The notes under the pieces were generated by a model. It made no database searches, was not told where the DNA came from, and saw only the letters and a program-made list of their open reading frames with translations. A stretch of 64,000 bases of DNA, from assembly GCF_000764655.1 (NCBI RefSeq), contig NZ_JRGL01000092.1:62001-126000 (forward strand), written 5' to 3'. The stretch's first letter is position 1; the number at the start of each line of letters is the position of its first letter. Of the stretch, positions 12,225 to 61,755 are shown in pieces. Both the position numbers and the translations under genes were made by a program. The DNA comes from Aeromonas aquatica. Its GTDB lineage: Bacteria; Pseudomonadota; Gammaproteobacteria; Enterobacterales; Aeromonadaceae.

Positions 12225-12965
12225 ATGGGTTATTCAATCGATGTATCAGTCGTGGTGCCCGCCAAGGATGAACGGGACAATCTGGCTCCCCTTATCGGCG
12301 AGATCGATGCCGCGTTGGCGGGGAAGTACGACTACGAGTTGATTTACGTGGATGATGGCAGCGAGGATGACAGCTTTGCCGTCCTCGGCGAGCTGAAGTC
12401 TCGCTTCGCCAGCCTGAGGGTGGTGCGTCACGTACGTGCCGTCGGCCAGAGCATGGCGGTGCTGAGCGGGGTACGCCATGGCCGTGGTGATTGGCTGGTG
12501 GTGTTGGACGGCGATGGCCAGAACGATCCGGCCGACATTCCCGCCATGCTGGAAGAGGCCAAGCGCCGCTTCGCGCAGGATCCCACGCAAGTGGGACTTA
12601 TCGGTCACCGTGTCAATCGCCGCGATGATTGGGTCAAGCGACTCTCCTCCAAACTGGCCAACGGTTTTCGCAATATGTTGCTGCGTGACGGCATCCCGGA
12701 TACTGGCTGTGGTCTCAAGGTGGTTCGTCGTGACTGGTATCTGCGTCTGCCCTCATTCAACCACATGCACCGCTACATTCCGGCGCTGATCCAGGCTCAG
12801 GGGGGGCGGATGTCGCCCTGGCCGATCAACCACAGACCCAGACAGGCGGGCGTCTCCAAATATGGCGTCTGGAACCGGCTCTGGGTCGGGCTGGTGGACG
12901 TGGTCGGCGTCTGGTGGTTGCAGCGCCGCTCCAAGGTGGTCGAGGTCAGGGAGACATTGGAGTGA
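12225..12965 (+). CDS. GT2 family glycosyltransferase (polyprenyl-phosphate sugar transferase type)
   Basis: The start at 12225 has GGGAAG eight bases upstream. The 246-residue protein is a GT-A fold: VVVPAKDERDNLAPL, YVDDGSEDDS and VLDGDGQNDP with the DxD-like metal site, then DTGCGLKVVRRD. It matches the DPM1/ArnC/GtrB class, which moves a sugar from a nucleotide donor to undecaprenyl phosphate on the inner face of the membrane. It lacks the two C-terminal membrane helices of ArnC or GtrB, so another protein must hold it there. The stop overlaps a GTG that opens a remnant of the next gene (GTGA). It is the first gene of a GT2 / LAB-N / GT39 operon. Confidence 0.85.
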   Translation: MGYSIDVSVVVPAKDERDNLAPLIGEIDAALAGKYDYELIYVDDGSEDDSFAVLGELKSRFASLRVVRHVRAVGQSMAVLSGVRHGRGDWLVVLDGDGQNDPADIPAMLEEAKRRFAQDPTQVGLIGHRVNRRDDWVKRLSSKLANGFRNMLLRDGIPDTGCGLKVVRRDWYLRLPSFNHMHRYIPALIQAQGGRMSPWPINHRPRQAGVSKYGVWNRLWVGLVDVVGVWWLQRRSKVVEVRETLE

Positions 12966-13057
12966 TCTATGCCCTGTTTTCGATGCCATTGATCTGGCTG
13001 GACTGGCGTGAGAGTGCTTTGCATGTGACAGGTTGGAATCAGGAGTGGCCGATATGA
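12962..13057 (+). pseudogene. 5' remnant of an older LAB-N gene, kept as a 31-codon open frame
   Basis: GTG at 12962 opens a 31-codon frame (VIYALFSMPLIWLDW..., then ALHVTGWN) that mirrors the first ~22 codons of the intact gene at 13054 (MIDALLSMPLDWLDW..., then LHVTGWK), with two extra codons. Its start overlaps the GT2 stop (GTGA) and its TGA overlaps the intact ATG (ATGA), so it bridges translation through the operon. It is best read as the start of the former gene, left behind when the present copy was put in. Confidence 0.75.
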
Positions 13058-13416
13058 TCGATGCCTTGCTTTCGATGCCGCTCGACTGGCTGGACTGGAC
13101 TGGCTTGCATGTGACCGGCTGGAAGATCATCGGTTACACGGGGGCACTGATGTTCGGCGGCCGCTGGCTGGTGCAGTTCGTCGCCTCCAAGCGCGCTGGC
13201 AAGCCGGTGATCCCTCGCATGTTCTGGTACATGAGCGTGCTCGGCAGCCTGATGACCCTGAGTTACTTCGTCTTCTCCCCCAAGCAGGACTCCGTCGGCG
13301 TGCTGCAAAACCTGTTCCCCACCTTTACCGCACTCTACAGCCTCTATCTGGATATCCAGCATCGTGGCTGGAAGCGGGACAAGCTTGCCAATAACGAGAC
13401 CCGTCATGATAGATGA
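13054..13416 (+). CDS. LAB-N domain membrane protein (lipid A biosynthesis N-terminal-like)
   Basis: The start at 13054 has AGGAG eight bases upstream; a longer frame from 13033 is less likely. The 120-residue product has about three to four membrane segments and the signature GYTGALMFGGRWLVQFVASKRAGKPVIPRMFWYMSVLGSL, followed by YFVFSPKQDSVGVLQNLFP, typical of the LAB-N domain. Members occur next to polyprenyl-phosphate glycosyltransferases. Size and topology recall small flippase subunits such as ArnE/ArnF, so a role in presenting or flipping the lipid-linked sugar is plausible (inference). It is bracketed by remnants of another allele on both sides. Confidence 0.8.
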   Translation: MIDALLSMPLDWLDWTGLHVTGWKIIGYTGALMFGGRWLVQFVASKRAGKPVIPRMFWYMSVLGSLMTLSYFVFSPKQDSVGVLQNLFPTFTALYSLYLDIQHRGWKRDKLANNETRHDR

Positions 13417-13441
13417 TCACTCCCGGTTCAACCGGCTCGTC

Positions 13442-13510
13442 CTGGATATCCCGTTTCGGGGTTGGAAGCGGGACAAGCTGACCCATAACGAGGCTTGCCA
13501 TGGTGAATGA
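13442..13510 (+). pseudogene. 3' remnant of an older LAB-N gene
   Basis: The 23 codons LDIPFRGWKRDKLTHNEACHGE-stop align without gaps to the last 23 codons of the intact gene (LDIQHRGWKRDKLANNETRHDR-stop), with the stop in the same place. Three changes are silent and eight replace residues. The GT39 start codon (13500) lies inside this remnant, as expected if the former gene overlapped its neighbour. Confidence 0.75.
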
Positions 13511-60459: not shown

Positions 60460-60522
60460 TTCCAGACACAGTTTTCCCGGTTCGACAATTCTGCCGGTCC
60501 GGCCTTAGACGATGACTATCAA
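60460..60522 (+). pseudogene. Copy of the dnaB 3' end
   Basis: Twenty-one codons (FQTQFSRFDNSAGPALDDDY, then CAA) align without gaps to the last 21 codons of dnaB (FQGQFSRFDNYAGPAFDDDY-stop). Seven codon differences are silent, three replace a residue, and the stop TAA has become CAA. The excess of silent changes points to a former functional dnaB end. Confidence 0.8.
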
Positions 60523-60583
60523 GGGATGACACCACTCGGTGCCTGGCGCGCGTGCGCCATCATGCCCTCGTAAGGGAAAACAG

Positions 60584-61657
60584 ATGAAAGCGGCTATTGC
60601 CCAAATCGATACCTCGGCCCTGCGCCACAACCTCGCCGTGGTCAAGCGCCACGCCCCTTCCTGCAAGATCATCGCCGTGGTCAAGGCCAACGCCTATGGC
60701 CATGGTCTGCTGCCGGTGGCCCGCACCCTGGTGGATGCGGACGCCTATGCGGTGGCCCGCATCGAGGAGGCGCTGATGCTGCGCTCCTGCGCCGTGGTCA
60801 AACCCATAGTGCTGCTGGAGGGCTTCTTCTCGAGCGCGGATCTGCCGGTGCTGGCAGCCAACAACCTGCAGACGGCGGTGCACACCTGGGAGCAGCTCGA
60901 GGCCCTGGAGCAGGCCGAGCTGCCGGCCCCCGTGGTGGCCTGGCTCAAGCTCGACACCGGCATGCACCGGCTCGGGGTGCGGGCCGAGGAGATGCCCGCC
61001 TTTATCGAGCGGCTGGCCCGCTGCAAGAACGTGGTGCAGCCGTTCAACATCATGACCCACTTCAGCCGCTCCGATGAGCTCGAGCAGCCCACCACCCGTG
61101 AGCAGATCGATCTCTTCAGCCGCCTGACCGCGCCGCTCAAAGGCGAGCGCGCCATGGCGAACTCGGCGGGTATCCTGGCCTGGCCGGACTCCCACTGCGA
61201 CTGGGTGCGCCCCGGCGTCATCCTGTACGGTGTGTCGCCTTTCCCTAACACGGTGGCGGCGGATTTTGACCTCAAGCCGGTGATGACCCTCAAGACCCAG
61301 CTCATCGCGGTGCGAGATCACAAGGCCGGCGAGCCGGTGGGCTATGGCGCCAACTGGGTGTCGACCCGGGATACCCGACTCGGCGTCATCGCCATCGGCT
61401 ATGGCGACGGCTATCCCCGCATGGCACCCAACGGCACCTCTGTGCTGGTCAATGGCCGCATAGTGCCCCTGGTGGGCCGGGTCTCCATGGACATGACCAC
61501 AGTGGACTTGGGCCCGGGTGCCACCGACAAGGCTGGCGACGAGGCCGTGCTCTGGGGCGAAGGTTTGCCAGTGGAGCGGGTCGCCGACGAGATTGGCACC
61601 ATTCCTTATGAGCTGATCACCAAGCTGACGTCCAGAGTGTTTATGGAGTACGTCTAA
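60584..61657 (+). CDS. alr: Alanine racemase
   Basis: The start at 60584 follows AAGGGAAAACAG. The 357-residue protein is a fold-type III PLP enzyme: PLP lysine in [12 protein letters not shown] (Lys34), [31 protein letters not shown], the second catalytic Tyr in VGYGANWVS, and [11 protein letters not shown]. It makes D-alanine for peptidoglycan. It is downstream of dnaB. The last 25 codons are echoed by a diverged copy 20 bases after the stop. Confidence 0.95.
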
Positions 61658-61677
61658 CCCTTTGACTTGGGATGGCG

Positions 61678-61755
61678 GCCGAGGAGATAGGCACAACTTC
61701 TCCCTACGAGTCGATCACCAAACTCACCTCTCGGGTCTTTATGGAGTATGTGTAG
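61678..61755 (+). pseudogene. Copy of the alr 3' end
   Basis: Twenty-six codons ([29 protein letters not shown]) align with the last 25 of alr ([28 protein letters not shown]) with one inserted codon. The final 13 sense codons encode identical residues although eight of them differ in the nucleotide sequence; overall twelve silent against three replacement differences. This end clearly evolved inside a working alr gene. Confidence 0.88.

Follow-up and report, generated by a model that had tools for sequence, protein, structure and literature searches.

Tandem copies of gene 3' ends follow genes across sampled Aeromonas genomes and are almost absent from sampled relatives

We analysed a 64,000-nt stretch of the Aeromonas aquatica genome (contig NZ_JRGL01000092.1, positions 62,001 to 126,000), hereafter the window, in which five genes are each followed by one or two extra copies of their own last codons. 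We call such a copy a tail and the sequence between stop codon and tail a spacer. The first-pass annotation of the window had reported tails behind a LAB-N gene, hmuV, a luxO-like gene, dnaB and alr; alignment recovered extra ends at all five, in register with the gene ends and at the positions reported or a few bases off. The Aeromonas comparison set comprised 37 genomes, standing for 37 species, in which G000 is the genome of the window (G000:C164:62001-126000).

The LAB-N gene (PF07578, Pfam 3.3e-18; 13054..13416, forward strand) has an intact end. Its 3' tail (13442..13510, forward strand) matches that end at 54/69 positions and overlaps the start of the next gene (13500), and a copy of the gene's start, also claimed by the annotation, lies upstream (12963..13038, forward strand; 60/69 aligned bases against 13055-13124). 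An hmuV-like ABC transporter ATPase gene (18770..19564, reverse strand; ABC_tran 4.1e-24), for which we keep the name hmuV from the annotation, is followed on the same strand by a proximal tail (18683..18741, 55/59 to its own end) and a distal one (18596..18654, 56/59), in an 87-bp tandem unit. The other three genes and their tails lie on the forward strand. The luxO-like gene, encoding a sigma-54 response regulator (53143..54558; Sigma54_activat 4.6e-67, Response_reg 2e-27), has a tail at 54593..54637 (39/45 to its own end), and the hairpin-like sequence GAGGGCTGAATATCAGCCCTC can be read after the gene and again after its tail. The tail of dnaB (gene 59018..60412, DnaB_C 1.5e-106; tail 60460..60518, 51/59) is found across the genus, in 35/37 species, and is called the old tail below. 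Finally, alr (alanine racemase; 60584..61657, Ala_racemase_N 1.3e-69) is followed by a spacer, S (61658..61707), that overlaps the start of the aligned tail (61678..61754, 58/74 to the gene's own end). Mismatches between tail and gene end at codon positions 1, 2 and 3 numbered 3,1,12 for alr, 2,2,4 for dnaB, 0,0,3 for the distal hmuV copy, 2,1,3 for the luxO-like gene and 6,4,5 for LAB-N.

Tails were sought by scoring the last 78 nt of each gene, taken from a simple codon-usage caller, against the next 300 bp. A score of at least 34 was called a tail, and inverted copies and shuffled partners served as controls. Sampled stretches of ten Aeromonas genomes were scanned; six of the ten are single contigs, so contig ends are not the explanation of the pattern. 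The scan for repeated 3' ends, which the first-pass annotation had envisaged for the whole genome, covered 392 kb of the 4.58 Mb of G000 and found tails at 18/324 genes: 5/50 in the window and 13/274 in the remainder. Counts in the other genomes were 6/151 (G011), 8/183 (G009), 10/131 (G022), 3/97 (G023), 3/98 (G017), 1/79 (G015), 2/76 (G036), 2/71 (G014) and 2/88 (G035), so that 55 of 1298 genes in ten species had a copy of their own last codons within 300 bp downstream. This figure counts the same genes repeatedly, because five genomes were sampled in stretches matching the window's region, and represents 33 distinct genes. Outside that region the count was 16/520, the sum of 13/274 for G000 and 3/246 for stretches spaced evenly along G015, G036, G014 and G035. 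The inverted control gave no tail in any of the ten genomes (0/324 in G000); shuffled partners gave 0/3240 in G000 (0/3229 in a separate run) and 7/12980 over the ten genomes summed. The tails of G000 thus far exceed the chance level.

Two outgroup sets were scanned in the same way. Nine genomes of the same family or order yielded no tail among 613 genes (shuffled partners, 3/6130). A further 79 loci from 32 labelled groups (1515 kb), drawn from Vibrio, Shewanella, Pseudoalteromonas, enterics and others and all surrounding dnaB, yielded one among 1222, in a Colwellia record. That single match (record L299, 9952-11371) is itself a dnaB with a close copy of its end. The difference between Aeromonas (55/1298) and the outgroups (1/1835) was highly significant (Fisher p 1.5e-20), also without the window's region (16/520, p 3.6e-10). 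It held when only genes with 100 bp or more of intergenic DNA behind them were counted (Aeromonas, 47/566; the nine outgroup genomes, 0/266; the 79 loci, 1/671) and at other thresholds (score 30, 60/1298 versus 3/613; score 50, 46/1298 versus 0/613). The tail pattern is thus real, strong and genus-level, and almost absent from the sampled relatives; the annotation's suggestion of a genome-wide process was borne out for the sampled parts of the ten genomes. The literature matches listed by our search, which left most subscription papers out of reach, included no description of gene-end copies in Aeromonas; the pattern is without published description among those matches, which does not establish its absence from print.

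Copies of gene starts upstream of genes were rarer (17/1298), and start sites are less certain. Windows with direct repeats were frequent in Aeromonas at gene 3' ends (94/2010) and just after them (150/2696), and occurred also in other intergenic DNA (129/9540) and upstream of starts (45/6226); the same four classes in the nine outgroup genomes gave 2/1036, 4/1871, 1/10375 and 3/2888. The Aeromonas excess of short direct repeats therefore extends beyond gene ends. The higher value at 3' ends may in part reflect easier detection, because selection holds the gene copy constant.

The tails share an anatomy. Stop-to-stop offsets ranged from 55 to 220, mostly 76-113, without clear preference modulo 3 (14, 22, 19). 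Spacers were only 0-142 bp as aligned, and a spacer was often a decayed stretch of the same gene (hmuV by eye, alr by alignment). Identity between tail and gene end was highest next to the stop codon (0.93 in the first 12 nt) and fell with distance, to 0.84-0.87 up to 48 nt, 0.79-0.81 up to 72 nt and 0.72-0.73 up to 96 nt, with 0.79 in the next bin. Mean identities of the tail thirds from 5' to 3' were 0.54, 0.73 and 0.84, where unrelated sequence gave 0.44. Even the 13 events whose 3' third reached at least 0.95 had mean thirds of 0.60/0.87/0.98, none with a 5' third of at least 0.9; no such third occurred in any of the 55 events (best 0.84), so there was no full-length fresh duplicate. Copies made by a recent tandem duplication should be equally similar from end to end; these are not, so they are not fresh duplications.

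Raw sequence at three G000 loci (C22:4033, C22:58134 and C7:83947) runs from the gene end through a decayed spacer to a second, identical gene end, then through an almost unchanged repeat of that spacer to an older copy; this is the order expected when a gene end undergoes misaligned recombination with an old tail. Two or three tails followed 17 of the 55 genes, several units in a row as in a tandem array. The proximal tail matched better in 12 of these and the distal one in 3, with 2 ties (p 0.035); the nearest copy is usually the freshest (12/15 decided cases). A LysE-like transporter gene (identified by eye; G000:C164:148111-148678) has tails spaced ~110 bp apart, as do its orthologues in G011, G009, G022, G023 and G017, which makes all six species sampled at this locus; the G009 and G022 tails equal the gene, and those of the other four have decayed.

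We compared tails with the gene ends of other species to assess their origin. Scoring covered 32 of the 37 species for alr and dnaB (five further species were added for dnaB only), 29 each for hmuV and the luxO-like gene, and 17 for LAB-N; the hmuV row of G018 was left out (N letters). Tails behind alr were present in 6/32 species. The alr end exists in two silent forms, class A and class B as read by eye, and in G000, G018, G019 and G032 the gene is class A and the tail class B. In G000 the tail was closer to the end of every other species than to its own (31/31), as it was to 24/31 in G019 and 15/31 in G018; the G032 case was weaker (4/31). Between G000, G018 and G019 the noncoding spacer (~50 nt) is 96-98% identical. 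The alr bodies of these species are 90-91% identical, with third positions differing by 23-24%, and their tails are 74-89% identical. At a silent-type rate of 0.2, the probability of at most two differences in 50 is 0.0013 and of at most one 0.00019. Because the spacer is so much more alike than the bodies, at so low a chance probability, it most likely moved between species, the recipients' own ends staying behind as tails. We are less sure that the gene's last bases travelled with it: over the last 60 nt, G000 matched the other two at 95% and 93%, and G018 matched G019 at 88%. More distant versions of the spacer occur in G004 (86% to G000) and G032 (76%), and G009 has a different spacer. In G010 the alr match was in two pieces (G010:C15:12857-14024), with residues 195-273 unmatched, and another alr-like gene lies at G010:C46.

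The dnaB tails were far more widespread. At least one was present in 31/32 species, and with the five added species one old tail was found in 35/37. The annotation had held that double ends shared by the relatives would favour local duplication; for the old dnaB tail such sharing is what we found, in part. Six species (G014, G018, G020, G035, G025 and G031) had a further, fresher dnaB tail. In this comparison, for which G025 and G031 were still grouped with the single-locus species, the first dnaB spacer of G020 scored 54 with that of G001, compared with 15 for its own second flank and a maximum of 24 for shuffled sequence, while the second flank scored 70 with that of G003. The first spacer of G025 was the same as that of G020 (score 180). 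Two dnaB spacer types of other species thus stand in tandem in G020 and G025, one clear stacked foreign spacer. Second flanks also found matches elsewhere: that of G035 with G001 (126), those of G014 and G018 with G006 (56) and G036 (59). The dnaB end of G029 is the old-tail sequence itself (47/47). We rejected G029 as proof of an ancestral single locus, as it groups with G027 and G008 in a small dnaB tree; an ancestral state and a collapsed double end are equally likely there.

Results at the remaining genes were mixed. The G000 LAB-N tail reached a score of 98 against the end of G011 and 63 against its own. The 5' copy is no help in telling the two apart (own, 60/69; G011, 61/69). For the luxO-like gene in G009, 24/28 other species' ends beat its own end; for hmuV and the luxO-like gene in G000 none did (0/28 each), so these two G000 events look local. 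Over all 43 testable events another species' end was better in 17. A tail closer to another species was rejected as general proof of foreign origin, given the 17/43 and since the same result could come from a duplication made long ago next to a gene end that keeps changing. The species closest to G000 shifts along the window, from G011 near hmuV, the luxO-like gene and LAB-N to G009 near alr, as expected under exchange between species. The annotation's simplest reading, that an incoming orthologue had displaced the resident gene, gains in part from alr and from the stacked dnaB spacers of G020 and G025; it loses in that the moving piece is short and the hmuV and luxO-like events look local. 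That reading is partly supported; what moves is short ends and spacers, not whole orthologues.

Drawing on these observed features, namely the genus-wide excess, tails decayed on their 5' side and fresh on their 3' side, ordered arrays, a stacked foreign dnaB spacer and a shared alr spacer, we propose that misaligned recombination between tails and gene ends, acting both inside a lineage and across lineages, renews old, short tandem tails, a reading to which we give an even chance. Tails (about 55-220 bp) would be old and repeatedly renewed in tandem. A tail would find, on a sister chromosome or in DNA of a related species, the functional end of its own gene and pair with it, and the product would join the old tail's decayed start to a working gene end. 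If the partner also had a tail, the array would grow by one unit; if it were a single-end allele of another lineage, the native end would become the new tail. Selection would tolerate such changes because only noncoding sequence after the stop is altered. We infer both the agent, putatively RecA-type recombination that uses sister DNA or DNA from natural uptake, and the origin of the first tail.

Several observations weigh against this proposal. The comparison is at the level of species, and no event was caught within one. The shared alr stretch is very short: G000 shows few differences from G018 and G019 from ~-90 to +30 around the stop, and G018 and G019 are free of differences only in the first 30 nt after it. 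Support from LAB-N appears modest, with G000 and G011 matching at 177/182 in the gene body, 80/94 in the own end and 61/69 in the tail. At dnaB, the first spacer of G035 was G013-like over 49 nt, with a best single-locus score of 24, equal to the shuffled maximum, and 28 with its own flank; those of G014 and G018 had no good single-locus match (G031 was not scored separately). The evenly spaced stretches of four other genomes, dnaB-alr excluded, contained only the three tails among 246 genes. No obvious repair defect accounts for the genus, because MutS (TIGR01070) and SbcD (TIGR00619) were each matched in all 64 genomes of the family (in 63 and 64 of them, respectively, above the cut-off); we therefore rejected lost mismatch repair or SbcCD nuclease as the cause, the two proteins being present in Aeromonas and others alike. 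Nor do codon positions help. Pooled mismatches came to 83,84,221 for the 55 events and to 31,36,85 for 22 more distal copies, near the ~1:1:2 that we estimate, without computing it, for a freely decaying tail beside a silently changing gene, and the third-position share was equal for proximal and distal tails (57% versus 56%, p 0.85). The annotation's claim that changes are mostly silent thus holds only in part, and we dropped codon position as general proof of inter-species origin.

Plain local tandem duplication, in which replication slippage copies the last ~100 bp behind the stop and the copy decays, with occasional re-amplification, the rate being high in Aeromonas, is in our view possible, though rather doubtful. 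It suits the near-neutral codon spectrum, the hmuV 87-bp unit that is repeated together with its spacer, the direct repeats raised in other Aeromonas intergenic DNA, and the 26/43 testable events in which the own end was best or tied, a count that also weighs against our proposal. The initially identical, full-length copies that it calls for are absent among the 55 events, however, and it leaves unexplained both the tandem of G001-type and G003-type spacers in G020 and an alr spacer more conserved between species than the genes themselves.

Homology-facilitated illegitimate recombination (HFIR) during transformation would pair incoming DNA within the gene on one side and close by a chance joint in the resident end on the other, leaving that end behind. 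It would place donor end, donor spacer and resident end in order in a single step, and it fits the first part of many spacers, which is barely above the level of unrelated sequence (5' third 0.54 versus 0.44). HFIR is described in naturally competent bacteria in PMC3240628, which names three species, and in PMC5361080, where it is also described as rare. The inserted sequence of another lineage that HFIR would bring has support in the alr spacer and the G020 dnaB spacer, and none at hmuV or the luxO-like gene of G000. Identity climbs gradually towards the stop, and several spacers read as worn remnants of the gene they follow; both points suggest that the partner was an old tail and the joint not a random one. 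We consider HFIR unlikely.

One tail may have acquired a role of its own. At the eight outgroup loci checked, alr starts within ~15 bases of dnaB; in Aeromonas the old tail stands just before alr. A 33-nt core of the old tail (60472..60504, forward strand) has a single variable site in 35 species (mean pairwise difference 0.0155), for the corresponding 33 nt inside the dnaB genes that difference is 0.1035, and 0.31 at third positions, and the core occurs at exactly one place in the G000 genome. Within the old tail, GTTTTCCC (60471-60478) is perfectly complementary over 8 nt to GGGAAAAC at the alr ribosome-binding site (60574..60581, forward strand) in 36/37 species, G005 being the exception; in G029 the complementary strand lies within dnaB itself, and most dnaB genes read TTCTCCC or TTCTCGC at this position. 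The helix closed the minimum-energy folds of 30/34 distinct sequences. Being invariant, it offers no covariation; the fold of the G000 stretch was no better than shuffled (z -0.69), and a consensus over a larger group kept only 6/8 helix pairs, with a few inner pairs changed on both sides and others broken. By consensus, no sigma-70 promoter or intrinsic terminator was found at 60380-60620, and no Rfam family matched the dnaB-alr gap at gathering scores. The region 60460-60590 is a possible alr leader RNA in which the pairing encloses variable hairpins. Judging from conservation and complementarity, the left-behind dnaB end was probably exapted and owes its retention to its place in the alr mRNA leader.

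That every tail is kept for a function, for example as leader or promoter of the next gene, draws on the slow change and the 8-nt complement of this one tail, and we regard it as very improbable: conservation was measured at dnaB only, and, where the intergenic DNA was 100 bp or longer (bins summed), tails were as common before convergent neighbours (17/187) as before co-directional ones (30/379). Without an excess beside co-directional neighbours, tails as promoters in general were rejected. Mobile elements can supply a replacement gene end, but since-lost elements once integrated at gene 3' ends are hardly credible as the source, since the spacers are so short (although no search for coding remnants was made) and those of different genes are nearly unrelated (best cross-locus score 23, shuffled maximum 21, 435 pairs), so that a common mobile spacer was rejected.

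Other features of the window include two cyclic di-GMP-I riboswitches (32203-32289 and 35330-35415), each shortly before a large gene (32401-35001 and 35783-38473). Similar repeat pairs lie near the ends of two large genes (34755-34959 and 38227-38431), possibly encoding repeated C-terminal domains. Direct repeats at 50626-50763 fall in a gene region with a histidine-rich look on one strand, as judged by eye.

Renewal of tails by misaligned recombination has partial likenesses among known systems. It shares with HFIR homology on one side and leftover resident sequence on the other; it differs in that the Aeromonas joint seems to fall within homology to an older tail and that successive events pile up at one gene end. 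The literature matches listed include natural transformation in Aeromonas itself. In Vibrio cholerae, type VI secretion effectors are displaced with retention of immunity genes, the incoming module shifting the resident part downstream, where it is kept and builds arrays (PMC5361080); those arrays consist of whole genes of one weapon system, whereas the Aeromonas copies are noncoding ends of ordinary genes. The microdiversity loci of E. coli, S. aureus and S. pyogenes are likewise short variable segments attributed to illegitimate or homeologous recombination (PMC2884548), and none of the 12 places of that text consulted, out of 34, mentions gene-end copies.

Insertions with long target duplication are also flanked by a copy of target sequence, but the Aeromonas loci have no inserted gene. 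Bacterial tandem repeats, or minisatellites, share the head-to-tail units and variable number; in Aeromonas, however, the first unit is a working gene end, and the units show decay on their 5' side and a fresher sequence on their 3' side.

Tentatively, and well short of an even chance, we suggest a wider view: a genus-specific process, coupled to DNA uptake or repair, may write fresh gene ends and push the previous ends downstream, so that intergenic DNA would be an ordered record of past alleles, some of them now regulatory leaders, as where a dnaB end became part of an alr leader RNA. This raises the question of what sets Aeromonas apart from Vibrio, Shewanella and the enterics. Should this hold, a single genus would have a recombination hot spot at its gene ends, on a scale of ~100 bp that is easily overlooked, and the leftovers would be a readable record of alleles once carried by a lineage. 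Aeromonas would then offer a natural system in which to study the making of intergenic DNA and of new regulatory sequence by short, misaligned recombination.

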